Assembly (NCBI GenBank): GCA_000310025.1 | Contig: FN649736.1 | Location: 1,284,736-1,348,735, forward strand | DNA length: 64,000 nt | Reading direction: 5' to 3' | Source of the DNA: Ectocarpus siliculosus | Taxonomy: Eukaryota; Sar; Phaeophyceae; Ectocarpales; Ectocarpaceae | In this document: positions 2,399 to 51,900 of the stretch, piece by piece | Numbering within the stretch: the stretch's first letter is position 1 | Layout: the number at the start of each line of letters is the position of its first letter | Position numbers and translations under genes: made by a program | The notes under the pieces: model-generated | What the model was told of the DNA's origin: nothing | The model's database searches: none | What the model saw: the letters and a program-made list of their open reading frames with translations, nothing else

Positions 2399-5300
2399 AT
2401 GAAGTCTGTAGCCGTAACCGCCTTCCTCGCCCTCGCTGCGACGACCCATGGGTTTGTCGTGTCCCCTGCATCTACATGCGCGGCGAGACCGTCCGCGGCG
2501 GTGACGGCTCAAGCGACATCACCCTTCATGTCGCGTCGTGTGGATTCTGCACCCACGGCGTCGTCCGGAGCACTCAAGATGTCCGACTCCATGAACGATG
2601 CTCAACAACCAACACTCGAACAGGTGGTTTGGGATGTCGTGGAGCAGAAGAGCTCCCTCCGAATTGTCGGGGTGTCCTCTGACCCGCAGGCTGTATATAA
2701 GAGATCATATGTGTTTGTTTGTGCGTACGTTGTATGATGCAAGTGTTAGCAGAGCTCGTTGTTTTTTTCTGAAGTAATCCTCCACTTGCATGTTGTCTAA
2801 GCACACGAACTTGTCTGCTCTCTGCTTTTCGTCCGCCGCGCGGTGGCCCACGGTTTTCTCTTCCTTCATAGTGGCTGACGTTCGCAGAGCCCAAACTCCA
2901 GTCGACCCTGATCGCTATGTTCGCGGCGTGCAAGGAGATCGCCTACAAAATCCGTACCGCGTCGTGTGACAAGATGGCGTGTTTTAACGAATTTGGCGAT
3001 GAGCAGCTGGCGATCGACGTACTTGCCAACAACGTTATCTTCGAGAACCTGAAGGCGAGCGGATGCTGCGCAACAGCCTCCTCCGAGGAGACCCCCGTCG
3101 AGGACCCCATGGGTGGCGAGGTCAGTTAGCTGGAGGTGTTGCGATTGCTGCGCATCTGTTGTGTCAGGAGACAAGCTGGTTGAACATGCTCTGCTCTCCG
3201 AAATGAGGATTATCGTCTGTGCTGTACCATGGTACAGCAGTAGTAGTACTGCTGTGGTATAGTGTCATCTCCCAACAGCAACCTGCAGCTGAGAATCGTC
3301 CACGAATGTAGTCAAATGCGCTTGTTTCTGGACACAATTGCATTCTTGGTTGGATGTAAACAAATGACGAGACTGCTATGAGGACAGGATCAATCGAACG
3401 TATTCATACCAAACATGGTGAGACACCTACAGGTAATAGCAACAGACTCGAGAGTCAACCAAAAGCACCCCACATCGGAAAAACTTGGATCGCTTACGGG
3501 CATTCCACGCAGTCGTAACGGCTCGGGTGAGCTATGCGTACTCACACTTGTAAACCGCCACAACCCCGGGGCTGTCCAGCTGTCAAGACTTTTGTTTAGT
3601 ATCAGTGGTCGACCTATGCTTTGGTGGATGTGGTCTTAAATGAAGTAGGTACTCGCAAATAGGGTTGAGCGCCTCTTGTACTTAAAAAAAAACAAAAAAA
3701 CGGAAAATACATCTGTGGAATGATCTCTAATATTTGTCGTTCCTTCATATCTGTGGATAAGAGATGGATTCGTTTATGTTTCTTATCAAACAGGTAGTAT
3801 CAGAATATGAAAATAGACGCAAATATTCGCGGAAGACTACGTATCTGGTACGATGTGCGGTAGATACCCTTTCGAGACAATTCTCCACAGGGAGGACGAT
3901 GGAATTTGCTGGACGTGAGGTTTGAAAGTGACACCTGCTGGGGAACCTGTAGTGGGGTGATGGAAAGGGGATCAGGGGGTTCCCACCTCGTCGAACGCAA
4001 CCAACTTGACAACTTGATGTCGTTGTTTGGTGCGGTTTGTTGGCTTTCAGGGATACTCGGTGGCGTTCGACCCGCTCGATGGATCATCCATCATCGACAC
4101 TAACTTCGCCGTGGGTACCATCTTCGGCGTGTGGCCGGGCAGCCGGCTGGTGGGCGTGAGTGGACGGGAGCTTGCAGCAGCCGGGATGGCTGTGTACGGC
4201 CCCCGAACCACCATGACAGTCGCTGGTACGGACGTTTTGCGATTTTGTTTTGCTGCATACCTAGTGTATGGTTGGCCGAGTCAACACGAACGAGCAGCTG
4301 CTCGCAATTATCTTGTAGGAATGTGCAGAATGAGAAGGTTGCCACGTTTCTTTGGTACTCGATTGTACTGTAATACGATGTGGAAGTATCTCCCACACGT
4401 CGAACGTAACATTTCGGAAGGCTTTCGCTCACTCTGAAAAAACATTCTGGTTTCTTTTGGGCGGACCTCTCTTCCTTATCAACAACAGTGGACGGCATGG
4501 ACGGCTCCCACGAGTTTCTCCTAATCGACGACTTCTCTGGGCGCCACGGCCAGTGGGTGAAGACGAACAGCTTCACCACCATCGACGATGGCAAGCTGTT
4601 CGCCCCAGGCAACCTCCGGGGCACGCAGGTGAGTCATGGTCTTCGTCGAATCCAGACCGTGGTCGCAGTCCTCCTTGTTGAATTCGAGCGTGCCAAGGTT
4701 GTCTGTGTTTGTCGCAACCGTTCGGTAGTGAGCGGCACTTGTGGTATTAATAGCTTCGCCCGCCGTCGGGATGGTGTTTGGTCGCAATGTAAAAATCCGC
4801 GTTTCGTCTTGTAGATCTTCCGCGATCCCACCTAGTACTCGCACGTAGTATTTGCACTCAAAATGACCATGGGCGTACGCCTCGTACAAGAAACAGAGCA
4901 TATCATGACCATTAATTACCAACTTTTATTTACTTACACGCAGGACAACGAGGGATACAACGAGCTCTTCAACTTTTACCTGGACAACAAGTACCAGCTG
5001 CGGTACACTGGGGGCATGGTGCCGGATGTAAACCAGGTACAGCATGCGAATTTTGTTTGTTGCCCTGCTCGTCGCGTGGTGTGGCTGAAGATTATTAGTG
5101 ACCGGCTGGCTACGGCGAAGGAAAAGAAATAGTTGGCATTGGATTCATGGACTCAAATACTGCGACAAGCATCTGTGTCATAGATGTGTAGATGTCTGAG
5201 GCGCGTTCACCCTCATATCAAGCTAAGATTTGCGATCGAACGCTCCGTGCTATTCCATTCCTGCAGATCATGGTGAAGGGCAAAGGGATCTTCGTCAACC

Positions 5301-6127
5301 CTGCGTCTGCGGCTGCTCCCGCGAAGCTCAGGGTCCTGTACGAAGTTGGCCCGATCGCGTACCTGATCGAGAAGGCAGGCGGCAAGTCGTCCGATGGCGA
5401 GAACTCTGCTCTGGACATCCAGATCCCCAACACGGAGGTGAGAGAATGGAATCTTGCCATAATGTGACGACTCTTTCTTATGGTGAATCCACCATTCATG
5501 TGGTTTCGTTGTTTTTCGCTAACCATGTCAACAGTTGCGCAGCTGTTAGACGGCGCATGCATGTGCGGAGCGCTTGCGTACGTGGCGCGGCATGATTTCT
5601 GTTCTTAGGCTTGCAACAACCTCCTTGGAGTGCTTGCATTAAGCCCAGCTGGCGGGTTACAGCATGTGTGTTTGTGACTATGGGACCAACTTGTGTGGAG
5701 AGAGGTGTAAACACGATTCTAATTGGGTGAAGGGCTCGCCCCCCGTCTCTAACGGCAGCCTCAGCTGTGTTGATCATTGTGCCATGAGTTGCGGGAGGCG
5801 AAGAATGAAACCCATATTTTTCGTTGTGCGGCCGAGTAAGAGCATGCAGCTTTTTGGACATGTCTATCGACAACTACTCGGGTGCGCCGGCAAGATCTTG
5901 GCCGATTGATGTCCTGCACGGTATAAAGAGTAGAGTAAACCTGCTTCAGGGTCGACACGTTTGGCCGGCTGTATCACACGAGTTTGACGACTTCACCTGC
6001 GTTGCTGCCGGTCTCCTTGTTCTTGTTTATTGTACAGGTTCGCTCACAGGTGGCGTACGGCTCTGTGGGAGAGGTGGACCGGTTTGAGAAGTTGGTCGGC
6101 GTGAAGGCGATGGTGGCTGACGCGTAG
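2399..6127 (+). CDS. SBPase: Sedoheptulose-1,7-bisphosphatase, plastid
   Basis: Calvin-cycle enzyme that removes the 1-phosphate of sedoheptulose 1,7-bisphosphate in the plastid stroma. Exons by GT-AG borders and phase: 2399-2623, 2872-3120, 4051-4225, 4489-4628, 4944-5036, 5267-5437, 6038-6127, giving 380 aa. Residues 1-18 are a signal peptide followed by Phe (THG/FVVSP), then a Ser/Ala-rich transit part to about residue 65. Family hallmarks are [21 protein letters not shown] and YGPRTT (metal and phosphate binding), and [12 protein letters not shown]. SBPase rather than FBPase is supported by RTASC followed five residues later by Cys (Cys107, Cys112), the spacing of the thioredoxin-regulated pair in plant SBPase. 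Light/redox control is therefore inferred. Frame is intact. Convergent with CNX2. Confidence 0.95.
3222..3255. repeat. Nested palindromes in SBPase intron 2
   Basis: CTGTACCATGGTACAG (3222-3237) is a perfect 16-bp palindrome. It overlaps ACAGCAGTA (3234-3242), whose reverse complement TACTGCTGT lies at 3247-3255, making a 9-bp stem with a 4-base loop. The 9-mer is the over-represented motif reported in the findings. Confidence 0.8.
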
Positions 6128-27601: not shown

Positions 27602-30600
27602 ATGTCCCAAGAAAGGGAGGGTATCGGACCCCATGCCATGTGGGGTTGTACACCTGCCCAAGATCTCCTGCGAGACTCCCCGCTGAAAGGACAGGTGGGG
27701 CGTCTATCTTAGAAAGATACTGCGCGCAGCCCAAAGGAATTTGTATTTCGCTCAGTCTATGCAAAGGAAGGACTTTCCTTACCACGTGGTGATTCCTTGC
27801 GGTAACCCGGTACTGCACATGCTGCTGCCCTTTCGCGCTTTGACGTCTTGCCTCCAGGCTAACATTCTGATCTGCCAACCTGGCGACATAGGGCATGTTC
27901 TGAGGACAATCGGCACGCGAAGGGGGCACCCTCAGCACACGATCCACGTAAGCATTCCTCCACGAGGTGTGCTAATTGAAGATCCAGCGAGCCATCTAGC
28001 TGTTGCTCCAGTATCCTGTCTACCGGTATTTCAGTGCTACAGCATGACACCAAAGTTCTTGATGTGTGATCTGCTTGGCGCTTTTTTCGTTGAACTGGAC
28101 CGCTCTTGCCAACAGCTGTACATATGGGAACGCCAGATCGAGGTGCTGGCGCGCCATCTACTTCTTTTGCAGGTCGCGCAGGATTGGGAATTGCCGATAC
28201 GGCAGAGAGCCAATGTCTTTCTCGAGATATTCGGGAATTGCTTAGTCCAGGTGACTATGTGTGACGGTTGTGTTGTACATAGAATGTTCGAAATTGGAAA
28301 TAGTACATGGTTGGGTCTTCACAAAAAAGAGCCATGTCAAGGTTCTCGACAAATCGATGTACTCTCTACCACTGTGAAGCAGTCTACCAAGTGTGAAGAT
28401 AAGAGGGCCCAGCACCAATTGATCGAGCTAAGACCCATCCTAGCGGGGAAAAGATCTTGGCCAGATATCTCGTGTTTTTCGATATTTTGGCAAATTACAA
28501 ATTACCTCGCGAGCGACTCCGAATCGCCTTGTCTATCTTCGAGAACAACTGCAGCAGCCGGTCTCGGCAGGCCGTCAGTTGAAGTGGTCGAAAGTTTGAT
28601 TTTTTCAAGAAAGCAAGATTGAAATTGCTTCGAATTGACCAGAACAGGCCAAGATCGCCCGTTCCATGCCAATCTTGCGCATTTTTTACTGAAAAGGGGA
28701 CAATCTCTTGTTCTACTAGTACAAAATTAACCTTTCTGAGAACGTCAGAGCAGGTCGGTGATATGCCAAGACCTCAATGAGAGCTACAGCTGGTCCTCAA
28801 GAGCGGGTAGGTCAATCGGAGCCGTCCGCGAGGTACCGCCCCAAGGGTCGAAAACACAAGCTTTTTCGCCAACAAGATTTTCCCCTCAGAAGATGGGAAC
28901 ATTTTTCACATGTTTCGTGAGATGTCTTCCTTGTTCTTTGGGCTGCCGAATGGGACTTTTGATCTCCTCAACACCGTTCCCCTCTATCTATCTTCCCCGT
29001 ACATCATACAGGAACAACTACGTAGAGTAACTCCAATCGTTCCTGCTCGTGCTACACCAAACTTCTTTTCCCAACTCACTTCGCATTCCCCCTTCGGTTT
29101 CCAATTTCTTGGGGTATTGTTACGATGGCGCCTGGACGAAGCTGTGTCTCGTTACCTCATCGCCTTGTTTTTTTTGTGCGAATTGAGGTCAATTTCTGCA
29201 TACAACATTTGTTTGCGTGCCGCACCTGACAGTAAAGTACAATGTTGATCACATCGCAACCCTCCTCTCCGTTCGACGGCTTCTTGTGCGTGTGCGACAT
29301 GGTTCCATCCATTTGGTGATGGACGCATGCATATGCTAATCACGTATGCCTTGCAGCTGGGTTTCTGTGAAACTCTATTTTGAAACGCCATGTAGTCAAA
29401 TATATGCGTTCTCGGTACGTCTACATGGGTGGCACAAACATTACAGGATCGTACCAGCCGCTACATTGCTCGCCTAGGGAAGGAACTAGTGGGCATGCTA
29501 TTCTCGACAGAGGACGTGCCTGACATACTGGATCTCTCACTACTCAAGAACAGAGAGAGAGACCAGCTTGAAGAGGTTTTCAAATCATGGCGCTGTGATG
29601 TGCCTTGCAACGGTGAGTAGCTCTCGACTCGGAAGACACGATACGTTGTTTCCATTTGATGTTGATAACACATACTTGTTGCCGACGACGCCGCACGTAC
29701 ATATGTTCATTCTCTGCTGATATGCTTCGATTTCTGTATATATTGCACAGAGTTGGGAAGGTGTAAACCAACAGTTCGTTTTTGCCTGCAATATATTGAC
29801 GATGTTGTGAACAGCCCCAGGAACATCGGCCATGGACACACAGCACTTCAAGGATATATTCGCCCTCTTTTTCGCATTCCGGCAGTGACGGCCCTTCGCG
29901 ATGCCCGCCTTAGGAACTTCTTCGGTGTGCGATACGACCATCGCAAGAACTTGGTCGACTGGGACTACACCAATCGGCTAAAACAAGTTGCGAGTATCAT
30001 CCACCATACCCAGTACAGGTGAGCCAAGATGGAAAACACAGACTACAAGTTTCGGACTTATTTTACCAGAACTTCAGAATATGATCTTCGCGAGGTGAGC
30101 TCCATGGCTAGTTCCCACGTTACATGTTGACATCGTGTTACCATGTTGAAAATCATTATCGTTGCTCAGGAGCTGGCGCTTGGAAGGTATCGCGTACGAG
30201 TTCGGGGACCAAGTCTATGACAAGCCTAACCGCACTATGGTCAGTTACGCCGAGGGGATGATGGTCAAGGGTGAACACCGAGGCCTGAAGAAGGAGATGA
30301 GGTCAGGAGAGAAGCGCGTGGCACCGAATTGATGATTTGTCTCAATTCCGTGGCGTGGCCTGGCCATTGCCTCTGTCAAGTTCCACCTCCACACGGTATT
30401 AGGGGAGTCGAGCTTATAAAAAACCGTCGTGAACCTCACAAAACGGCTGTTCGCAGGGGTTTCTGGCTGGACATCCGCGTTGGTCCGTTCATCACTTTCG
30501 GAGTAGACTGCGACCGGCCGAACCCATTCGCTGAGGAGCTGTTCAACGTTCTTAATAAAGGCACAGGTGCGCATGACTCTCCAGAAAAATCAAGCACGTC

Positions 30601-33611: not shown

Positions 33612-36600
33612 CTACTTGTACGTACCTCGCAACATCGCTCGGCAACTTTTCATCCTTCGCTCGACCTCGGCGTCCCCTCTATGTACGGCACCAACATCGT
33701 GCATTAGTACTTTCTCTACCCATTTGTTGAACCGCAAGGTCGTAGCTGATGATACGAGCCACACGTGGTCCGTAAAGTTAATTTGAACGCCAAGCGATTG
33801 CAAGACTTCTACCCGACGACTGAGCCGGTTGGTCAGGCTGTATCCAACCAGTGTTGGACTGCCAATGATGGCGGCGCGAACCTCTTCAATTGACCCGCCA
33901 ATCTCCTGCGTGAAGAAGTTGACCTTGCCGCGTAAGTTCGTGACACTGAGATTCAGTACTTGTGGATACTTGAGCGCCATGGAAGTTGCTTCCTTTCGGC
34001 TGGCCTTTAAAGCCTGCGCGACAAGAACGGGCGGTAGAAACTGTTGTAGTTTTCATTGATTTGCCGTGATTAGACCCGCGTATGTGCACAGGTAGCAGTG
34101 GCATGCAAGCTGCGAACACTGAGTGAACAATTGGTACACCACCTCACCTGCATGAGGAAGACCAACTTGGACTCGATCCCATCAATGCTATACCCCAAAA
34201 CTTGTGGACAGCGAGATATGAGGCTGGATACCTGCAGAGGAACGTGAGAAACCGACACAGGTTAGTTGGAAGGGGTACAAACGACCTCAATTTCAACACA
34301 AACTGTATCACCAATTTCCACCCGGTGTCTTGCTGGTACTCATAAACCCATATTGCGATTATCAAGCGTGCGTTACCACCAGGCAGGTGAGCGAGTGATT
34401 CCATTCTCACGTCGTTGGCGTCCAGCTGCAATCCCTCCTCAAAATAAGAAACCTTTCGCCGCATGCTCTCCAAGCTATAGGATAGGAGGGTCGGCGATCT
34501 GACGAGAATCTTCCTCACTTGAGCCTCTTCCACACCAAGCTCCGAAGAAAAGAAACTCATCTGAATGAAAACAACGCACGACGAAACAAAAAGCAACATC
34601 AACTTTATCGGGGCACAAAGTCATAAGGAAGTGGAACACATGCGAGGCAAGTTTTTGGTCGTTTCCCACAGGTAAAACAACGTTAATTTGTTAATTCCAG
34701 CAACATATTGAACAAGCGCATGAAAAATCCGAATGTTCGGATGCATGACTGGAAAACTCAAACACACAAACGTTCTCTATAGTGTAGGGCGGTTCTGCCG
34801 ATTTGCGCCAGGTTCATCGGGGCCAAGGCAACCACTCCCAAACTCGGCCGCTACGCTTCTCCCGATGTTCAACCGTGTTGTGTATACAGATCTTGCAGCT
34901 GGTACTCTGTTATTGCTCGACCATACGAGCCGCAACGGTTCAAGAAAGGACGCCTCACCTTGTGCTTGATCCCCGTGTCGATGTTGTAAAGCAGCAGGGA
35001 AGGGTTCTTCAACACCATGTCTCGCAGTGCCTGTGCCATCGGCGAACGAACTGAATTACTCTCAGTTGGTTTGGGCGTATGAGATTGCCTTTAGAGCATA
35101 CGGACAGCACATTTCCTATCATTCAACGTTCCCGGCCGTACGCCATCAAACAACCCATACCCCGGTGCTACCCGCAGAAGAACTTGCGCAAGCAAGTCTC
35201 ACCACGTCGTTGACCCCGAAAGTTTCCTCGAGCCAACGAATCTTCGGTTTCAAGTTGTTCTCGACGCTGAGAGACCAAACCTGCGCGAGGACGTCACCAG
35301 TACGTTTCGTCATTCAAGACAACATTTGAGTAGATCTGATTGGCACTACTGTGTCTTGCGAAGAAATGGTGAAACCCCACACAGGAAAAATATTTGACTA
35401 TTGTACTTGCAACAAGACTGGTAACACTGTCTTTTTTACCCCCAAGAATTTTGTTTTGTTCTTAATCCGTTATGTGGTCAAGAGTCAATCTGCCCTACAG
35501 GTGCGCACTCGACTTGCTCCGAGTCATGTCTCACCTGAGGGCGTTGCCTAAGAAGCTTTCTTAGCTGATCTTGACCAAGGAAAAGCCTCGCCTCTAACCA
35601 TTCAACCTGTTCCACGGCATGCGTCGTACACCATAGAGTTCACCGTAAATTTAATCGATTCCTGGAGTTTAGTGTTAACAGGGTCTTGGGCATACTCTTA
35701 ACCCTGGAAGCCTAAATGGGGACACTTTGGGGACACAGCACTCAAACCTATTTACCGCAAGGTAGTCACCCCAGGCTCTGGTGTGTACGCGAGAACCCTT
35801 GGCCTATCATGCTTGGCTGAGGTGGTACGCTGTGTGGTATGCTGTGTGATGCCTCTCCTCGGCCTCTGACTTGCTTTAACACCATCTCCGAAGCCGCGTG
35901 TCCCCTAGGTCGAAAAACTGTCCATCGCCTGGTACTGGGAGCTCACATTCTTTGGAGGGACTGTAACCCCTCAACCAATAGGCTGACAAACATTTTTGCG
36001 ACATTCTTTGTTGCGAGGGGACTGAGTGCTAGGAGGGTTAAGCACTACGACGGTGTCTACTACAGCACGTGGACAAATTAACGCGAAAGACCATCAGTCA
36101 GGATAGGTGTATAGTCTAGGCGGACGAAAATGTTCATTAGTAATATATACCTTACCAGCGGTACTTCCGACCGTCCAAAGCGCAACATACCAACGATTTT
36201 TCTCAATCTCCTGGCTCTGAAGGCTGTTGCTTGACGTTGTAGAACGATCACGCCCAGAGGTTTTCACGCGTATCTATTTGGGCTGATGTTTATTTATATA
36301 CTGCAGCAACGTATTCCACCTTCGGTCTCAGGTTCTCCTCCACACTATACGACAGCAAATTTGGCAACGCCACGATATATCGCCTGATGTCTCGCCGCGG
36401 GACACCAAGCGCACCTTCCAGGTAGGCCACCTGCAACACAACGAGGCAGCCAGATACATATGTTCTGCGATCCAATTTTGTCCAAATCAGGTACAATGAC
36501 CTCAATCCCGAAGAAAACATATCATCACAAAATTCTTCTCTGTGGGCATCCTTCGTTTCCGGCACCTGCAATGCCGGCGACAAACGAACAAGAACAAAAA

Positions 36601-37802
36601 CGTCAACGATGGACCATGTAGAAGGGTGAACATGATCCACAACCACCTCACATTCGGCCGCATCTTGTTTTCCACGCTGGACCCCAAAATGTGCGGAGTC
36701 TGCAGTATCACTTTTGCCACTTGCAATCGACGGAATCCTAGATCTTCTGTGAAGAACCGCATCTGACGCGCGCCGGTACATGGACGAAAGATCGGCGGAA
36801 CGGACAACCGTTAGTCTGGATAGCCTCCTCTACAACAAAGAATTCACTACGGCGTAGAATCAAGAGAGAGAGCTACCAATGCTGTAGCATGCTATGGCGG
36901 TGGAGAAGATAATGCAGCCGACCAGAAGGCGCACTTTGACAGTGCTGCTGCATGAGTAGGTAGACATCTGGCTGGCCTGGCGTCTATGTGTGTCGTTCAC
37001 GAGGGATTGCTGGCGGGTGATAGCTGACATTGTCCAGCACAATTGTATGAAACTGATGTTGACTTGAGCTGAGGCGCTCGACTTCGCAAGTTGACACCAA
37101 AACAAAGTATCACCTTTTCGCGCAAGTTGGACCAACTCAGACGAAGGATGGTCGGGTCCTTAATCACCTGTGAGCCAATGACAAACGCACGACCAGGGCG
37201 CGCCACATGAGGCAACTACGCATTGCAATCACGTCTCAATGGAGGATTGGTTGGTCATGTGGTAGCGCATGTAGACAACAGCAAGGCCCTGGGCGGAAAA
37301 TTCGCGCTGCCACGAAGTCGCTGACAAATCACGAATTTCTACGTGCACACCTTTAATTCTCACTCACCAGTGTCTTCAGGTCCTGTTTGGACAATTTGAC
37401 AACATCGAGGTAGAACCCAAGCTGGCGTTCAAGCGTGTCAACTGGTGATTTGGCAATCGCTGGCCTGCCCGCAACAATCTGCGATAACGATCATGCGACG
37501 TATGAGAGTGGGTCGCCATAAGGCCGAAGACACAATAAATGGGGTACGAGAGGCTCCAGAACCAATCTGCCAAGTTGGCGGCGTACAATGATTGCTGTGG
37601 TGAGGTACACCCGTCCCTATTGTTTGTGCGAAAAAGCAGGAGCACAGCAGCGCACCTTCGCCATTTCCCGCGGAGAAAGACCCAGTGTTCTCGAGAGTAG
37701 GCCAATAGCAGACGTGGAGAAATCACCGTCCACAAAAGAAGTATTTGTCGCGAGTAGATGCGATGCCTCGGATGGAGAAAGATCGACTCCCAGCGAGTTC
37801 AT
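33612..37802 (-). CDS. mTERF-domain protein, multi-exon
   Basis: mTERF proteins are helical-repeat nucleic-acid-binding proteins acting in mitochondrial or plastid gene expression. Exons 5' to 3': 37656-37802, 37368-37478, 37114-37167, 36652-36762, 36320-36430, 35535-35606, 35203-35280, 34959-35030, 34411-34560, 34148-34231, 33612-34013; all joins are phase 0, giving about 463 aa. Repeat motifs (P..L..S.E..L..K...L..LG) include KDPTILRLSWSNLREK, QTPHILGSSVENKMRPN, ALPNLLSYSVEENLRPK, RQRPQVWSLSVENNLKPK, KNPSLLLYNIDTGIKHK, RSPTLLSYSLESMRRK, RCPQVLGYSIDGIESK, KYPQVLNLSVTNLRGK and GSPTLVGYSLTNRLSRR. The 5' end (leader) is missing: the first exon shown starts after an acceptor (CCACAG/ATGAAC). The target organelle cannot be called. 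Convergent with DNAAF3. Confidence 0.9.
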
Positions 37803-40207: not shown

Positions 40208-43200
40208 TCAATCCACATATTCAAAATCGATGCTCTGGATGAGCGGGTTGTCCAGGAGAGCCATCTGGATCCCATAAGCCACTTTCCGGTGACCGCTGTA
40301 TGTGAGTTTGACGTGCCCATCCAGAACGCTCAGTACCTGTTCCACGCGTGCAAACCGAAGAGCAAAGGGAAACTCGTCAAGCGGCTGCTCAAAGCTCAAC
40401 ACTTTCGTTGGCGCTGTGGTGACACGCATTGGTTGACGAAACTGAATTAACTATGCCTAAACGAGGGCACGTCTTACCTCGACTTTGGCCCTCATAGCGA
40501 CCATCGCGGGCCGCAAGGGCTCTAAAATGGCTTCTACCACGGCAGTCGTCGCTTCCGCCATGGCGTTTCCGCTAGCCTCATCAACTTGCTCCACCTGAGC
40601 AGACACGACACGGTTTGCGATGAAGTTTGCCGTCATGAGAACAAACTGGCGCCTCGAGCGACAGCTAGCAGCCCGTTGGTTCTATTCGCACGGACGATAG
40701 CGTGGGCTTCGCCGAGAATACTGCTGAGGCGACACGTACTCAATCCGGATCCCTTACCCCGCCCATGTTGAGGAAATTCTCATTGAGAACCCTCTCAATG
40801 CCCATCTTCATTGTTGTCGTAGATGAAGGACAGCTACCGCACGCGCCTTGAAGAGCCAGTTTCACCTTCATGTACAGAGCGGACAAGAAGAGCGGAGCCG
40901 TGACCGTTTCAGCAATCACGGTAAAAGACGACACGCCTTTAGCATAGGTAGACAACCGGGAAAAGGGGCTCGTGCCTTGTGAGAAGGGTCTTAATGTCGC
41001 CAAACGAGCAAGACCCCGATGCTGGCCAGGGGGTCTACGCCGTGACATCACCAAACATGGAGGACCCATATACTGACTCACCACTCTTCGGTCAATGTCG
41101 ACCCCCATGACCCTGACGTTGCCCCCATCCGCGATCAAGTACGGCCGGACCTCGTCCAGCACCTGAGGCACGAAGCGGTCCAAAATAAGTGACCCAGACT
41201 CTAGGCTGGCGCGCGCCGTACCAAGGTCCGGGGATTACGTGCACTTGGCGGCCGATACGGCATACACGTTCAGTCCCCACCTCCGAGGGAATAACTATTG
41301 CGATCAATACAAAGGCACTGGCAACCTTTCCGGTGTGACCCTACAGCCGCTTCCTTCCCCTTGCTGCGCTAACCTCCCATTGCTGAATCACCCCCCTAAG
41401 CATACCTTGTCGACGTTCTCCAACGTAAACTCCAGGTCGTTGCACTCGGAGGCCGGAGGCGTAGGGGGGGCGTCCGGGACGGGAGCGGCGATCCCGGGTG
41501 GCAACGGTGGCGCCGCCATCCCATCTGGTCCAACTCCGACCGGCATGCCGTCCGAGCTGAAAGGACTGGAGTCAAGGGAAAAGGCCGCCATGTCGGCATT
41601 GTGAGGTTGGACGGTCTCGTGGACCTACTGTCACACGTTATTTAGACGTGGGCTCGACCCATTGCAACATACCGCAATTGTGTGAGTCGTGGCACCCGGG
41701 TGCGATCGCTCATTAAATTGTTTCGCTCCTCCATTTTGGCGCACCCTGGTGCCATCACTCCGACTTATGCAGCGTATGCAGTCTCTCCGAGGACAGTTTT
41801 TGTTTTGATGTCATCAACGGCAAGATTAGAGTGAAATACTATTAGCGGCTTACTGGTGCTATCGTCTTGCTGGATACGGGGAGCTTGGTTGAGTGCATAC
41901 CACTTGTCAATTTAATGAAAACCACGTGGCCATTTTCCCAACGAAGTTGCGCCCCGGTGCAAGCGGGTGCGATATCTTCGAGGAGCGAGAATTGAAACAA
42001 ATCAATCTCGTTTGCATTTGATCGCACCCCGGTGCGTCAGCGAAGAAAAGGGGGGAGAGGGGAGTCGGATTCTTGGTCAAGGAACACTTGTTTGACGTGG
42101 TGGAAGTAGTGGTGAAAACGGAGTTCGAGGAAAGCCTACGCCTTAAGATACCTGGGGAGCGGGGAGAGAAAGATTTGTTTCTAGGGAACGTACACGTCCC
42201 ACCGTCGTCGAAGAAAGTCGCAAGCAAGGCGCAGGAGAACTTTGGACAAACTGGGGAAGATGTCCAGAGGTTCAGTAAGAAGAGAGAAGTTGTCATGGTG
42301 GGCGATGCCAACTCCAGAGTAGGGAAAGCCTCCAGTAGAGGACAGGCGATCGGGCAGCACGGAAGAAGACAAAGTGAATGACAACGGATTGAGGATGCTT
42401 GAATTCTTGGGAAGCAACGAGCTGATGGTGTTGAAAGGTAGGAGGGAGTGCGATAAGCCGGATTCACCAGGCAAAGGGCAGTTTGCAATGAATATTCGAT
42501 CCTCGACTACATCCTGGTAGATAAGGGGAGCACACAGATCGAAGGGTGGGAGTCCATAGTGAACACAACGGCAGAGAGAGTAGTGGGAAAGAAGGTGGTA
42601 CGATGTGGGGTATCGGTTAAGTGGTGGGATGACGAGCTCAAAGAAGAAATAGGAGAACGTAGAGAAGTCTTCAAGCAGTACCTGAGTGAGGGGTCTGAGG
42701 AGATTTGGGAAAAGAACAGGGCCAAGAGAAAACAGGTGAAGGGACTAGTGAAAAAGAAGAAAAAGTGCATTTGGGACGAAGTAGTGCAGAAGGCCAACGG
42801 AGGCCTGGAGGGGAACGTCAGGCAGATGTGGGAAGGGATTAGTGGGATGGTAAAAAAGACCGCGCAAGGGGGGGATACAGGGGTAGCAACTTTGCGAGGT
42901 GTGAACGGTGGAATAGTCAGCAGTGAGAAGGGAAAAAGGGAAGTTCTCGCGGGACACTACAAGAGACTTGGAGTGCCTTCGGAGAATGAAGTTTTTGACC
43001 AAGTGTTTAAGGAGGAGGTGGACGCATGGGCCCAGAAAGAAGAGACATCGAAGGCAGACGTTGGGAACGTAGAACTAGAAAAGGAGTTCACTGAGGACGA
43101 GGTTGAGGCGTGTGTGAACAAGCTGCAGTGCCACAAAGCAGCAGGGGCGGATGGGATAGTCAACGAGTTCATGAAGTTTGGGGGGAAGGGGATGATCCAG

Positions 43201-46200
43201 TTGATCGTACTGCTGTACAACTGGGTGTGGAAAAACGAGTATGCGCCAAGTAGAAGGAGGGAAGGGGTGGTTGTGAACTTGCTTAAAAAAGGAGACAAGA
43301 CTGACCCAGGAAACTACAGGGGGATCACACTGTTGAACACAGTAGGAAACGTGTTCTGTAAGCTGCTGAACGATAGGATAGTGGGAGTATTGGAGAAGGA
43401 ACATAGCATTAGTGAGGGCCAGGCAGGTTTCCGAAAGAAGAGGGGGTGCGTAGACCACGCATTCACGGTAGGGAGAATCATCCAAGGTAGAAAGAGGGCG
43501 GGAAAGCCGACGTACTGCTTCTTCCTGGGCGTGAAAAAGGCATACGACACCGTACGGAGAAATGGGCTGTGGAAACAATTGTTAAGTACGGGATCAAGGG
43601 GAAAATGTGGAGAGTGCTGAAGAAGATGACAAGAGTGTACGAAAAGCGCGGTCATGCTAGACGGAGAACTGTCTAAATTATTCGACATTGAGCAAGGGGT
43701 CCCACAAGGTTGCATGCTGTCCCCGACATTGTTCCAGGTGTTCATCAACGATCAGTTGGAAGTCGTAGAGGCAGTCCGGAAGGGAGTAAAAGTAGGGGAC
43801 ACGGAAACTTCGGTGTCAGGAATGATGTTTGAGGATGATTTTGTTGGTATGTCGGACACCCCTGAGGGACTGCAACTGCAAATTGACGCGGCGAAGAAGT
43901 TTACTGGTAAGTGGAGATTGTCTGCCAACGTTAAGAAGCGTGCCGTCATGGTATGCAATGAGGACAGGGAGGAACCAGTAGAACATAGATGGAAGTGGGG
44001 GATCGAGGAGATTGCAGTAGTGGACCAGTACACATACCTCGGAGTAGAGATCGCAAAAGACTGCTCGTGGAATGCACACATGTCCATGGTAGCGGAAAAG
44101 GGCAAAAAGCACGAGCAGGGAAGCTGCACCCAATACTCGCAAACCGGCACCTCGATACACGCATCAAATTGACGGTTTTGAATAGCGTAATCGTACCGCC
44201 GCTAGAGTACGGCGGAGAAGTATGGGAAGGAAATAAGAAGGTAGTGAAAGAACTCGAGGCGGCGCAGATGAAAGCAGCGAAAATCATCCTAGGATGCTCC
44301 AAGCGCACAAGTAATGCAGCCGTCAGGGCAGAATTGGGGATCCAATCCCTACGGTCGGGAAGAGACGCAAGGAAGCTGACATGGCAGTATCGCATGTATG
44401 TGCGGGATGGGAGAGGAGAGGTTGCCGAGAATAGTATGGGAGGCGAAGTGGGCAAACAAAAAGAGGGATAGACAACCCACGGAATGAGTCAAGGTTGTGG
44501 AGGACGTATGGAAGGGGTTCGACATCGACGAAGATGAAGCGATGGAAACGGAGGGTCTACAGGGGTTCAAGGAGAATATATCTGTTGCTTGTGCCGAGAG
44601 AGAACAGGTTATAAGGAAAGAAACCGAGGATAAGGAGGGTCTAGAAGTGTACGGAATGTTGAAAGAAGGAATAGGGTTCAAGGACTACCTACATGGACCA
44701 ATGGATGCAGGGACAAAGCTTAAGATCAAATTCAGGACCGGGGACATAGGCCTTCGAGAACGTCGACTAAGACATAGGATGGTAGACGACGAATTTGATT
44801 GCGGCTTCGAATGCGAAGACCGTGTTCATGTAATCGCGGAATGTCCGTGGCACGAAGAGAAGAGGGAAGGGGCATGACTGAGCTGGGAAAAATAGAAGGG
44901 AGGTACAGGGAGATGTTTGAGGTATGGAGTAGAGAGGAGAGGACGGTAGCTGTACTGGGGAGTAGGAAGTGGTTTGAAAAGGCGGGAAGGGATATCATTA
45001 GGATAGACAAACTAGGGAAGACATTTTTGAGCCACCTTTGGTAAAGTAGGAAGGAACGATTGGTCATCGGTGATCGGCCCTGTGGGAACAATGCTCCGTC
45101 CTCTCGAGGACGCGTGGTCAATGGTCTAACCGCTAAGGCATGCAAAACGTAAGAGTATCCCCCCCCCCCGGTGCGTCACTGCCAAGATGTCATCATTCGA
45201 ACAATTATTTTAGCTGCCAAGGGATACAACCAAATCTGGGCCATAGGTAAGCCAATTCACCACTCGATGAGCAAGTAGAAAAGCCCGCAGCCATCAGCAC
45301 AAAATGTTGTTGTCGGCTTCAACACACACCTGATGATGGTCGCCGTCGGAGCGTCCACTTCAACCTTAGGTTCTTCCGTGAGCTTAGTTTGCCCGTCGAT
45401 TACACTGCTCCAATCATCATCTTCAACAGCTGACTCCAGGCGCTTTCGGCGTTCGATATCTTCGGAGCTCATCTGGTCAACGGGGAGTTCAGTATGCATA
45501 CAAGCATACACAAGCCAACACAACGAAAAAGGGTTTATCGCATACATACCGCATCATTAACATCCAGTGTAATACCTTCCGTGCTCGCATAAAACAATAG
45601 AAATGCTCGGCAGTCAGGCCCGCATGAACAAAAACTGGACTGCTGTCTCCTGCCCACGCCAGTCCCAGCAACCTATCAGAAGAGCTTACACTTTCCATGA
45701 TTCTACACCTGCTCTGTCTCTTCAACCAGCCCCGGGTCCGCGATGGCTTTGCGCATTTTCAACTTGTTCTCCTCGTACGCCTCCTTTTGAGCCGGAGACA
45801 TCGCGTTCTGTCAAACAAACGGCCACGGTGGAAAAAATCAGAGCGAAACGGGTTGGTTGCCACATTCATAAGACCGCAACTACACAGAATCGACCGGACA
45901 GTAAAAACAATCTAGATACGGCAAATCAATCGACTATGGAACTCGCTCTTTGCAAGCCGAGTGGTGTTTGAGTGGCTCCACCGCCTACAACAGAAGCACA
46001 ACATACGGCCAACAAACAGGTACAAAATTCCCCGCGTGGTAACCACCCAATCGTCCTCTCCATGCTCACTTGTGCATCTTTGGAGCCGGTTGCCCACTCG
46101 CTACCCTTGATGTTGCCGACAGGCGTCGAGCCGCACTCCTCGATCCATTGCGCTTTGAGGGCCTCCATCTTGTCGCGCTTTGGAAACTTGAAACTTCTCA

Positions 46201-48719
46201 CCTGGACATGTAGCCAGGTCAAAGGCAAGAGACGAAGAGAGCGGGTGGACCCCAAACCAGTCTGACATCAGTAGCGTTCGAGCGACAGGCGCAAATCACC
46301 TGAAAACTTGACTTCCAACACACAACATAATATGAGTGATCGTTGAAAAGGGATACCAACTACATTTCCATCTTTACATATAGTTGGAATGGCTCATGCA
46401 TGCCGCAATAGCTTTTCACGTATCATCCACAAACGCTGGGGTCGAAATCGAACCGGGCGTGCAAGTGAAAAACTATCAAGTTTTGAAAATTGAAAATTGA
46501 GTGCCCCGCTGCCCCCGCATGCACGCACACTTTGCGCTTGCACCTCACCTTGAGCATGTGCACCATGCTTTCGCCCTCGGCCGCTAGGTGAGCAGCCAAC
46601 GACAGCGCCACGTTCCGGCCGACGCCTACGAAGTTCACCTTCTCGTCTTTGCCCACGACGGCATACACCGCAGCGTGCTTAGACTCAGCGTTATCTTTGA
46701 GCCACTTCGATACCTGTGTATTCGTTCCATGTAGGGGATGTAAAGTTCAATCGCGACCAGAGCAATGCTGTGGCCGGATGTCGCCCGTCGGATTTTTCAC
46801 ATGGGTACGCTCGGGAACACAGTGGGTATCACGGGGGCAAGTGTTTTGGAAGCGGTCAGATTGATTCGGACTCGGGGGTAGATCGACATGGATGAACTCG
46901 GGTTCTCCCAATGCAATGTGCCACCTCGGGACAACACAGTATCTAGTACCCTGGAGTTTGACCGGAGCAAAACAGGGCTGGCTGTTTGTGAGCTAACCTT
47001 TACGTAGTGGGATACTGTGGGGGATACTGCTGTAAATACTGCTGTAACGTTGAGTTGAATGTAGCCAAGAAGGTTGGCGCTTCAATTGGTACACATTTCG
47101 TACATACAACCAAGTTGCGAGGCACACGCATCCGAAAAACTTTGGGAATGGAGTCACTCGCAACGGTCGACAACAAGAGGAAGAAGACAACTCCGCTAGT
47201 CGTGCCAACTCGCCTCGTAAAGCTGGGTCCCGTCGAATAGTTCCACCGAGCCGTCACTTGCTGTCGCACCGTGGTCCTCCTCGTTGCTATACAAGAAGTC
47301 GTGCAGCCCCCTTCACAAACAAGCGTGTGGGCGGAAGCTGTGTGTTACTTACAACCATCGATTTGCTAGTTCTACAATATTGTAGTGCAGATATCGGGAA
47401 CTCCGACGTTGGTGCGATGGAGGCACTGCAGTCGACACCCCAAGCTGACGGCTCCAGATAACGACACACAATTCTACTACTGCCAAACAGAGTGCACCGC
47501 CCGAAACCAAAGCTAGTCCGAATCTTGCCTGTGAGCTTGAGGTACGTCGCGGTCTTCTAGACGAACCTCTTCGGCTGTCTCGGTAGTCTGTAATGTAACA
47601 TCGAGTTTAAGCAGAACTGAGATAAGAGCAGCAGTAGCGGCGATGAACGCGTAGACGTGTTCGAGAAGCGACAGCAGACGGCAACAACAACGCTCATGAC
47701 AAGCTTGCACAGCGAAGACAAACAACAATCGATAGGTGAACTCTCACACAATCGCAAATTTCGCGTATGAGACACAGGGCAAACAATAACAATCCCAATA
47801 AATAACCTTACAGAACAGCCCCGGAAAGCATAGGCAGAAAAATTGAGAGGTATAGAGTAGGCTACTGTTTCTTGCTGTGTTTGCACCTTTACATCCTTGC
47901 GTAGAAGAGCAAAAACAACACCAGAGACGGACAATTCATCGTTGTACTACAAGTATACATGGAGAGAAATCGGGTGATGACGTCGGGCGGACGTCGAAAG
48001 GTAACTCGTGTCACCGACGGTACCTACAGTACCTCAACGACAGTCGATGTACACTTGTATGTCAAACTGCATCCTACAAAGCGGACCATTCCACCACAAC
48101 ATATATCGTGAGAACTTGTGAACACTCTCCCACACAAGCGGGGATGGAATATGGGGGAGAGGAAGAGGGAGCGGAAGAGGGAGAGGGGAGGGCGAAAAAA
48201 CGAAAAAACATGCCGCTTTTCCTTCAAGTACTGCTCCAGCTGCAACAATCTACCCGCTTCTCTCTGACCTATCGACCAATTGGAAGTTGAACGCACAGCA
48301 ATATTAAGATGGTATTGTGGAGGAAACAGAACCAGATAAGTGCTTGGCATACCCACGCCGATTTGCCAACGATAAGTGAGACTGCAGTTGAACCGTATCA
48401 ACCGATACGGCAACAACACTGCATGTGTATGTGCAAGTTGCCGCGCCAGCACCACACACAAAATTGCTACCGCCCGGAGGACTTCCACACTCCACCCTAA
48501 TAACACTGAATTTACCTCATCCGTCGTGCTTTGAAGTACAACACCACGTCCTGCTGCAGTTCGGTGCGGTATGGACGAGGACCGCGAAGCATGCGGAGCA
48601 CGACTCCTTGACACTGCTGCAGCGGTAGACGCAAGCTGAGGAAAGACGAATGAGCTTGCCTCCAGGGAGAGTACCGCCAGCACCAGCAGAGACGCTGAGT
48701 ATCGACCCATCTCGGCCAC
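40208..48719 (-). CDS. Plastid GIY-YIG/NFU fusion, Fe-S scaffold protein
   Basis: Ten exons, 445 aa: 48516-48719, 46549-46713, 46070-46201, 45709-45807, 45330-45472, 41406-41565, 41082-41162, 40758-40865, 40478-40594, 40208-40336; all phases agree (phase 0 except the exon 5/6 join, phase 2). Residues 1-68: signal peptide ([19 protein letters not shown]) and transit part. Residues 69-165: degenerate GIY-YIG domain, [20 protein letters not shown], like the N-terminal domain of plant plastid GRXS16. Acidic and Pro-rich linker to about 300. NFU domain 1: [15 protein letters not shown] and [20 protein letters not shown] with the CxxC that holds a transient 4Fe-4S cluster. A second, Cys-less NFU-like domain closes the protein ([15 protein letters not shown]), as in plant plastid NFU. 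Likely a plastid Fe-S scaffold. Intron 5 contains the LINE. Confidence 0.85.
41691..42039. repeat. Recurrent GCACC/GGTGC palindromes in intron 5
   Basis: GGCACCCGGGTGCGATCGC (about 41691), GCGCACCCTGGTGCC (about 41740), GCGCCCCGGTGCAAGCGGGTGCGAT (about 41950, given here as two adjoining blocks) and ATCGCACCCCGGTGCGTCA (about 42021). Four related imperfect palindromes in 350 bp; the last is the LINE target. Confidence 0.6.
42040..45169 (+). mobile_element. LINE (non-LTR retrotransposon), 5'-truncated and dead
   Basis: Flanked by a direct repeat, CCCCGGTGCGTCA at 42027-42039 and 45166-45178 (9 bp plus Cs shared with the tail), a target-site duplication. Order: remnant APE-type endonuclease ([11 protein letters not shown], then ILDYILVD) about 42073-42520; reverse transcriptase about 42559-44172 ([71 protein letters not shown]); C-terminal region with a Cys/His knuckle ([20 protein letters not shown], about 44800-44862). 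It ends in 11 C instead of poly(A). The first catalytic Asp of RT is Gly ([13 protein letters not shown] at 43528), and the frame changes near 43620, 44172 and 44470. No ORF1. Clade not assigned. Antisense to its host gene. Confidence 0.95.
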
Positions 48720-48993
48720 TTGTGTTTCTTACACGACCACTGCTAACAGCTGTCCTGCTTGTTGGCTGTAGGGTGTGCGCGTCTTCAAACCCAGCACGCG
48801 CTATCCGTCGCACATGTCCTGTGTCTGACTCTCTCGCACTCTCAACTCTCTGGGGCACCGTCACTGCGAAGAGCAACTACAGGGTACGACCCTTGTCATC
48901 CAGAATTTAAATTTTCGCCGCATTATATTACCGCACTGCACTTCTTCGACTTCTTCCACATCTCCCTCGTTGTCACACTAGCCGCACAGCGTC
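48720..48993. promoter_or_regulatory. Shared bidirectional promoter region
   Basis: Only 274 bp separate the divergent starts of the GIY-YIG/NFU gene (ATG at 48719, minus) and the sterol dehydrogenase (ATG at 48994, plus), so both 5' UTRs and promoters must lie here. Pyrimidine-rich CTTCTTC/CTCC tracts precede the plus-strand start. No clear TATA box. Confidence 0.65.
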
Positions 48994-51900
48994 ATGGGTG
49001 TGGAGGGTGCGGTATGCATGGTGACAGGGGGCTCCGGTCTCACTGGAAGGCGCTTGGTGGAAATGCTAGCGGAGAAGGGTGCCGCACGCGTTGTGTCTTT
49101 CGACATTGCTCCTAAGCCCGCTGATGCCATGGAGCATCCGGCTATCGAGTACCAGCAGGTGGGCTTACAATGTAGCCCTACAGGTGGCCACAGGCCGTGA
49201 GCCAGGCCACCACGGGAGTGCAATTAGAGATTGCTGGGTTTTTAGGTGTAGTTGGGTTCTATCGCCGAGTTTGCTCCCATTTCGAGTATCTCCTCAAGTA
49301 CTGCTGTGCCCATGTGTCGTACCGTCCATTACCGCAGCAGCAAGTAAATCGTAAATCACCACGGAGGGTTGCGCTCCCTCCGACACGCAGCAAGCACGCC
49401 TCGTCCTCTACCCAGCAGTGATGCGTATCCTCTACCATGCGGTTCTCCATGGGAGGTTAACTTGTGCAGGATGCATGGACGAGGTCGTTCGATTTGCACA
49501 TATCCATGCACATCTCCTTGGAACCATGGTCTGTACAGGGGAACCTGACGATCCCCGACGACGTGGACAAGGCATGCGAGGGCGCAGACTGCGTGTGGCA
49601 CGTCGCGGCCCTCGTGGGACCTTTTCATGCGAAGGAAGCGTACATGGCGGTCAATTACCAAGGAAGCCTAAACGTCCTCGAAGCATGCAGGTATGTGCAT
49701 GACCGCGGGTACCCAATGCCATGCGTGCGTTGTTCTGCACCAGACCGATGAAAGGTCCTGAAATGTCGTGAGTATGGTGCCGCACCATACATTTAGTCAT
49801 GTCCAACGCACGCCCCGTATGCCTGACTGCTGCTCCTGCTGCTAATTGGGCCATTTTTCCTGGGAAGCCCCTGTTTCTCCGCCGTGTAAATCTTCATCCC
49901 TCGTCGAACAAGGCACGGACGAAACGAAGTAAATAGACGTGACCAGAAACAGTTTAACGTGAAATAATTGTTGTTCTACGAGTTGTCAACGACAATGTGC
50001 TCGCATAATCGCATTTGCCAGGAAGCATGGCGTGGGGAAGCTCATCATGTCGAGCAGCCCGAGTACCCGCTTCGATGGCAATGATATCGACGGCCTCAAG
50101 GAAGACGAGCTTGAGTACCCGAAGAAGTTTTTGCAGGTGATTTCGTTACCGATACGTGTGCATGCGCACAGCCAATATTTGCTCTTTCGCGCGCCGTTTC
50201 AACCCAGTGCAAAGATGCTCCAGAATTTTTTGAAGTTGTCGACGCTTGTTCATGGATGCAATTCTTGAATAACCCGCCACGTCGCGTTTGATTTGCGCCA
50301 GCTTTATGCAGAGAGCAAGGCGAAGGGAGAAGTGGCCGTGTTGGAGGCTTGCTCGGACAGCCTCCTTACCGTTGCGATAGCGCCGCATCAGATCTACGGA
50401 CCGAGGTGCGTAGAGTGACGAGTTGTCCTTTGATGCTTCACCTCGAGAACATGTCTCTACTCGCGAGATGCTTTTAGGCCTTGTGAAAGCAACAGCATTG
50501 CCCGAAAAACGAAACGCGCCGCCTGTGACAATACGCTGCAGGGATAACTTGTTCATGCCAAGCCTCCTTGAGGCGGCTGGAAAGGGACAGCTGCGAGTGT
50601 TCGGCAACGGGAAGAACAAGGTCTCCTTCACTTACCTGGACAACTATTGCCACGGGTTAATACTCGGATACGATGCCTTGTACCAGGTGCGTGCTACCTC
50701 CGTGTTTGGGAACTTGGGAGGGTGTTATCTTGTCGACCTGGTGTCCAGTGGTAGGCTGATAGTTGCGTGCAGTTAAGGGCGGCCAGCGGCAACTTGACTA
50801 ACTATACCAGACGTCGAGTAAGGTTGCTCCTTTGTTGTTTTTGTCGCCCCATCAGCACGTTCCGCACCTCGTCGTTCGTGTGATCTGGTCGGTTTGCAGG
50901 GGTCACCGGCATTAGGGAACTTCTACATCGTGACGGATGGAGGCTGGCAGGTAGGCCTGCGGGATCGACTATAGCCCCAAACGTCTGGAAGCCAATACTT
51001 GAGTGACGGTTTATTGTGTGTCTTCAATGCAGGAACGCGGGCCTATCTTCTTCCGATGCTGTTCTTTTATAAGACTCTGCTGTGGTATGACTGCTATTTT
51101 TGCAGCAACAACTGCTCTAGTTCAGAACGATTTAAAAGTCGCTTGTTCTACTTGTAGTCAACTAGGCTATATGATATCAAATTACTCAGTGGAAGGGTGC
51201 GCACGCAGTCTTTGGGGTCAACAGATCTAAGCATGTTTTTTTTCATGATGAAAATGCGCTTACCGAGTACCAATATGTGGCACCCTTCTGCCCACCGTGA
51301 CAGTACTTCTGGAGGGTGATTGACGGCGCGGGTATGGCCATGGGCTTCAAGTCTCTCTTTGACAAGATGAAGCTCCCGACGCTGCTAATGGTACCAGTGG
51401 GCTACGTTTGCGCAGGCATCGGCTGGATTTTGGGGCGAAAATTGCGGGTCAACCCGTTCACGGTTAGTAGTCTGTAATGTGATATGTATGTAACCTCTTG
51501 CAGATTTTCCTTGCCTCAGAACAAAAGTTTTCTTTGACTAACGATCCCGACTACGAAAAAGCAGCCCCTCGGTACGAAGCACTGCGCGTATGCTTTGCTG
51601 TGAAATTGTCCCAACCTCCAGCCAGACTGCCCCAGGAGTACGTACCCGATGGTGCACGACACCTCTGGTATTATGCTATTAGGCTAGGGGCCTGCGGTTG
51701 CATGACAGCCGAAGCCCTTTTGGGTTTGTTGAAAATAGATTGCCCTTTGATCTCAACGGTTAGTATAGCGTATGACCAAATCATACTTCCGTGAACACCG
51801 AATGCTACTTGACCATCTTGCCCCAATCGTCTATGTGGCCTGCGCAGGTGAAGATGCTCATCATCCACAGATGGTTTGATATCTCGGCGGCCGAGCGGGA

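Follow-up and report, generated by a model that had tools for sequence, protein, structure and literature searches.

Does the minus strand between positions 48710 and 40208 of the window (the whole 64-kb stretch of Ectocarpus siliculosus DNA analysed here) encode a single protein joining a GIY-YIG domain to tandem NFU domains, and what would such a protein do in the plastid? Ten exons run from 48710 down to 40208. All nine introns have GT-AG borders, eight of the nine lie in phase 0 with intron 5 the sole phase-2 intron, and the joined exons form a 1329-nt frame that is open throughout, encodes 442 amino acids and ends with TGA, confirming the ten phase-compatible exons proposed by the initial annotation. 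The domain order that it had read from the joined exons is likewise borne out by the gene model and the domain matches. The junctions between exons 2-3, 6-7 and 7-8 fall within a domain match, and those between exons 8-9 and 9-10 do so weakly; the junctions between exons 1-2, 3-4, 4-5 and 5-6 lie outside every domain match. We consider the locus a real gene of published architecture, best explained overall (probability about 0.75) as a single gene for a plastid-imported, NFU1-type Fe-S carrier with a GRXS16-like GIY-YIG domain.

Exon 1 (48516-48710, residues 1-65) encodes a leader that resembles the signal peptide plus transit peptide of a heterokont plastid presequence. Its first residues are hydrophobic in a hydropathy analysis, and the stretch ASS-FVFP at residues 18-24 matches the heterokont rule described in PMC2567999 (Ala at –3, the signal-peptide cut, then Phe), except that Ser replaces Ala at –1. 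A TAA directly precedes the open frame of exon 1, which begins 18 nt ahead of the ATG and whose composition does not resemble that of coding sequence, with 104 of 460 intron segments scoring at least as high. Since the open frame of exon 2 contains no ATG ahead of the GIY-YIG domain, an upstream exon is required for that domain, and we infer the link between exons 1 and 2 from their splice signals and from this need for a start.

Exon 2 (46549-46713, residues 66-120, VYAVV...FVGVGRN) and exon 3 (46070-46201, residues 121-164) encode the two parts of the GIY-YIG domain, both of which are covered by a match to the corresponding domain of AtGRXS16 (2LWF). With the whole protein as query, phmmer matches residues 77-154 to 2LWF at E 4.5e-6, and exons 2-3 alone give E 7.3e-7. 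The local alignment score against AtGRXS16 is 110, compared with 52 for the best of 2000 shuffles. In the two-row alignment the domains share 37% identity (28 columns in common), and the shared positions include the Tyr of VYAV, FVG, the Arg of RN, WIEE and P-x-G-N; GIY itself reads AVY and YIG reads FVG in the Ectocarpus domain. Asn is one of the markers of GIY-YIG nucleases. The motif, an Arg and a metal-binding Glu mark them as well (PMC9071465).

Sequence similarity, with Tyr, Arg, Glu and Asn retained, thus points to a GIY-YIG domain of the AtGRXS16 kind, and we accept the assignment because of the AtGRXS16 match, which also leads us to reject the objection that degeneracy rules out a GIY-YIG identity. 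The initial annotation had likened this region to the GRXS16 module, as the 2LWF match bears out, and had called it a degenerate GIY-YIG domain; the identity stands, and "degenerate" overstates the case given the agreement with AtGRXS16 at Tyr, Arg, Glu and P-x-G-N. The nuclease model PF01541, which had been put forward as a check on the domain, gives no match: the Pfam scan of exons 2-3 returns no family at E up to 1. A scan of the domain against NCBIfam produces zero matches, and a search of plasmids yields eight records at E 0.7 to 5, none of them a credible relative.

The first NFU domain begins near the end of exon 6 (41406-41565, residues 245-298, otherwise a proline-rich linker) and extends through exon 7 (41082-41162, residues 299-325) and exon 8 (40758-40865, residues 326-361). 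Residues 296-357 match the NifU domain PF01106 at E 6.6e-25, the NFU region matches PDB chain 2Z51 at E 1.8e-27, and the nearest solved chains to the first NFU domain are the chloroplast NifU-like proteins 2 and 1. The CxxC cluster ligands are present as Cys334 and Cys337 within GACGSCPSS of exon 8, so that the NFU domain recognized earlier by this motif also holds up against the PF01106 model. NifU is the only family found when the whole protein is compared with Pfam, and NCBIfam returns just the NifU and NfuA models, far under their cut-offs. A CGFS glutaredoxin domain is absent, there being no CGFS in the 442-residue sequence and no glutaredoxin in the Pfam scan.

Exon 9 (40478-40594, residues 362-400) and exon 10 (40208-40336, residues 401-442 and the stop codon) probably encode a degenerate second NFU domain, devoid of Cys as is all of the sequence downstream of residue 337. 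This region scores below the Pfam cut-off (E 0.057, 14 bits against 27) and, searched alone against the PDB, finds no NFU chain and a single unrelated match (E 0.68). Only 4 of 2000 shuffles reach its real score against the second domain of 2Z51, 6 of 2000 do so against the first domain of 2Z51, and 1 of 2000 against the protein's own first NFU domain; with an HMM built from five NFU domains (PDB fragments) it scores 11.0 bits and ranks top of 1001, the best shuffle reaching 9.5. The similarity spans about residues 379-415 and crosses the junction between exons 9 and 10. We tentatively accept a degenerate second NFU domain because these scores are better than those of shuffles and because the region lies behind the CxxC domain, so the Cys-less second NFU domain of the initial annotation is weakly borne out.

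Between the GIY-YIG and NFU domains, exon 4 (45709-45807, residues 165-197) and exon 5 (45330-45472, residues 198-245, acidic) encode a linker recognized by its splice sites and coding composition. We compared codon-position composition with that of open segments of the other introns; none of 1225 such segments scores as high as exon 4 in frame and none of 839 as high as exon 5, the segments overlapping one another and therefore not being independent. The test is a modest one, as some accepted exons score lower when left out singly (exon 8, –0.005 bits per base; exon 10, 0.034 bits per base). A somewhat coding-like composition also marks the 57 nt directly ahead of exon 6 (14 of 1845 open intron segments score as high), so exon 6 may begin earlier, its true 5′ end lying a little further upstream, or a separate NFU gene may start at an in-frame ATG at 41591.

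The latter reading, in which exons 1-5 and part of intron 5 belong to a gene for a plastid GIY-YIG protein and an adjacent NFU gene starts from the ATG at 41591, draws on the unusual intron 5 (41566-45329): at 3764 nt it exceeds the other eight introns, which range from 141 to 1802 nt, and it is the only one in phase 2. Its length is largely accounted for by a decayed, apparently 5′-truncated LINE-type retrotransposon of about 3.1 kb on the plus strand (42027-45178), antisense to the gene. Two distinct open frames each match reverse transcriptase (E 1.4e-8 and 1.2e-12), and a match to endonuclease falls under the cut-off (E 0.028). A perfect 13-nt direct repeat brackets the element (42027-42039 and 45166-45178, 3139 nt apart); its GC-rich portion resembles other motifs of intron 5 (family D1), which makes a target-site duplication likely rather than certain. 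Removal of the 3139-nt insertion unit leaves 625 nt, inside the range of the remaining eight introns, and we therefore reject the view that the long intron alone argues for two genes. The eight codons starting with the ATG at 41591 score –0.027 bits per base and do not look coding, the NFU half on its own would start without the heterokont-like leader, and the fused layout is already in print (PMC3721309). Two separate genes are thus unlikely, in spite of the ATG ahead of exon 6 and the coding-like 57 nt. Within the same intron, we also observed a MITE-like stretch at 41692-42035 with 16-nt inverted-repeat arms, GCACCCGGGTGCGATC and GATCGCACCCCGGTGC, that are 94% complementary; the LINE insertion apparently lies at its edge.

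The LINE could instead have broken an originally intact gene, with transcripts now stopping inside the element and a remnant left behind, as about 3.1 kb of antisense sequence does separate the two halves. Yet the element has itself decayed, its reverse transcriptase being spread over two frames, and the insertion would therefore probably be old, while all ten exons are still open and bordered by GT-AG; we regard a broken gene as very improbable. Frame, splice sites, the coding-like linker, an intron whose length the LINE explains and the published precedent together make it highly probable that the GIY-YIG domain lies N-terminal to NFU in one polypeptide.

The precedent goes back to Couturier et al. 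(2013), who describe a GIY-YIG domain with two Nfu domains in some algae, in P. patens (Physcomitrella) and in Picea sitchensis, and who already noted the likeness of the Nfu-linked GIY-YIG domain to that of GRXS16 (PMC3721309). As described there, these proteins of the NFU1-3 type carry, besides the two Nfu domains, a GIY-YIG extension roughly 200 residues long, and a comparison based on that description reveals no difference in layout from the Ectocarpus gene. A 2021 account describes Chlamydomonas NFU1 as a GIY-YIG domain plus one NFU domain, reports that many of the microalgae it analysed have similar proteins and that, dicots apart, all terrestrial plants have orthologues, and, in its Table 2, marks NFU1 in Ectocarpus and Nannochloropsis (two of five heterokonts), Galdieria and Vitrella (PMC8003979). 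The two sources disagree about angiosperms and about the second NFU domain. Because Table 2 marks orthologues rather than domains, it is likely, rather than established by that source, that its Ectocarpus NFU1 has exactly the GIY-YIG-NFU-NFU layout (PMC8003979).

With GIY-YIG-NFU-NFU in print since 2013 (PMC3721309), we reject the notion of a new architecture, and the gene looks like an ordinary member of the known GIY-YIG-NFU family. The initial annotation had set GRXS16 apart from plastid NFU, stating that the latter has no GIY-YIG domain, which the descriptions of 2013 and 2021 contradict (PMC3721309, PMC8003979). Its further idea, of one nuclease-like module carried by two different plastid Fe-S proteins, had already been published, as the same two sources indicate; the module may have been recruited twice, or both cases may descend from a common ancestral link.

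Five known proteins or protein types resemble the Ectocarpus protein in different respects. The layout of the NFU1-3 type is given above. The NFU1 orthologues marked in Ectocarpus and Nannochloropsis are probably the group to which the gene belongs (PMC8003979). Chlamydomonas NFU1 (Cre17.g710800), by its description, shares the N-terminal GIY-YIG domain, a Cys-bearing NFU domain and a role as chloroplast Fe-S transfer protein, and is said to be without the second, degenerate NFU domain that the Ectocarpus gene retains (PMC8003979). AtGRXS16, for which GIY-YIG is listed in Figure 3 of PMC5890173, resembles the Ectocarpus protein in its GIY-YIG domain (2LWF; the 37% identity, Tyr, Arg, WIEE and P-x-G-N given above), which it carries fused to a CGFS glutaredoxin instead of NFU. 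Chloroplast NFU2 (2Z51) has the same succession of a CxxC NFU domain and a Cys-less NFU domain, whereas its solved chain of 154 residues contains no GIY-YIG domain.

Sequence searches for relatives were made among viral contigs with the whole protein (5 candidate stretches) and with the GIY-YIG domain (30), and among bacterial and archaeal genome contigs with the two-row GIY-YIG alignment (158 candidates) and with the NFU domain (62), and confirmed none. The NFU scan relied on exact peptides of one protein, and is therefore a poor guide to NFU proteins of bacteria; these do exist, as 18 plasmid records attest.

Retention of the second NFU domain, said to be absent from Chlamydomonas NFU1, would fit a three-domain ancestor that predates the split between green and red lineages. 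Moreover, GRX6/GRXS16 is marked in none of the five heterokonts of Table 2 and NFU1 in two of them, and therefore, in such heterokont algae, the plastid Fe-S protein bearing the GIY-YIG module may be NFU1 (PMC8003979). The locus is of modest importance, offering a well-defined structure of a GIY-YIG-NFU-NFU gene whose plastid leader is heterokont-like.

As to function, carrying Fe-S clusters in the plastid is the most likely role of the protein, judging from its relatives. NFU proteins are described as acting in Fe-S transfer after the SUF scaffold; in Arabidopsis, NFU2 and NFU3 are believed to supply HCF101 for the benefit of photosystem I, and dihydroxyacid dehydratase is a further client of NFU2 (PMC8003979). 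We propose a single nuclear gene whose product is an NFU1-type NFU imported into the plastid, in which a presequence would be followed by the GRXS16-like GIY-YIG domain, an acidic and proline-rich linker, the CxxC NFU domain and the Cys-less NFU domain. By analogy with relatives, the CxxC domain would be loaded with an Fe-S cluster by the SUF scaffold of the plastid and deliver this cluster to client proteins; partner binding might be supported by the Cys-less domain. The least certain part concerns the GIY-YIG domain, which, on its flexible linker, could be an accessory module that binds or cuts nucleic acid or that imposes a redox-controlled restraint on the carrier, as reported for GRXS16.

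For GRXS16, an endonuclease activity of the isolated GIY-YIG domain and a mutual restraint of its domains, explained by a Cys123-Cys219 disulfide, are ascribed to Liu 2013 (as reported in PMC5890173). In the aligned AtGRXS16 fragment the only Cys has no Ectocarpus counterpart, and the Ectocarpus protein instead has Cys143 behind WIEE; the exact GRXS16 disulfide is therefore not carried over, and another disulfide could serve. It is possible, if somewhat doubtful, that the GIY-YIG domain of the same gene is inert or acts as an adaptor for protein contacts, in which case the protein would be an Fe-S carrier and nothing more. The silence of the Pfam nuclease model and the replacement of GIY by AVY and of YIG by FVG are in keeping with a domain that is not a nuclease, as is the outcome of a literature search (most subscription journals lying outside its scope) that yielded neither an activity nor a functional test of a GIY-YIG-NFU protein; however, the Tyr, Arg, Glu and P-x-G-N are held in common with AtGRXS16, whose isolated domain has the reported endonuclease activity (PMC5890173).

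The role of a GIY-YIG domain on Fe-S carriers was raised as a question in 2013 in a paper which suggests that a divalent metal for the nuclease could be bound by the Nfu domain, and which offers descent from two cyanobacterial ancestors as a possible explanation for the moderate degree of likeness (PMC3721309). In a bolder reading, the fusion would serve as a sensor in the plastid: a GIY-YIG domain that cuts or binds DNA would be gated by the Fe-S or redox state of NFU, and in red-derived plastids NFU1 would carry this module and play the part that GRXS16 has in green ones. This reading draws on the marking of GRX6/GRXS16 as absent in all five heterokonts of Table 2 (PMC8003979), and we hold it to be quite unlikely. 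The Fe-S carrier with an accessory GIY-YIG module remains our preferred reading.

The genomic setting was surveyed by scanning 20 selected open frames from the rest of the window against Pfam; matches above cut-off are to 3-beta-HSD/epimerase, mTERF, fructose-bisphosphatase (two) and DUF4470, and none of these is a known Fe-S assembly partner. The 64-kb window contains no Rfam match and no tRNA. Its 200 N bases (first at 1047, last at 31524) are assembly gaps outside the NFU gene. A split fructose-1,6-bisphosphatase gene lies at 2872-5464 on the plus strand, with the N-terminal domain at 2872-3126 and the C-terminal domain at 5192-5464, and the C-terminal domain also matches, under the cut-off, at 4836-5129. 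The DUF4470 frame occupies 27687-28619 on the plus strand (311 codons, E 2.7e-12). On the minus strand, mTERF-like frames span 33615-36829, of which 33615-34052 scores above the cut-off (E 3.5e-11) and 36293-36829 below it (E 0.0028). The divergent neighbour of the NFU gene on the plus strand, 48982-49748, consists of 3-beta-hydroxysteroid dehydrogenase/epimerase-like frames that begin about 280 nt from the NFU gene ATG, with a PF01073 match at 49461-49748 (E 5.6e-9) and a PF01370 match under the cut-off at 48982-49200.
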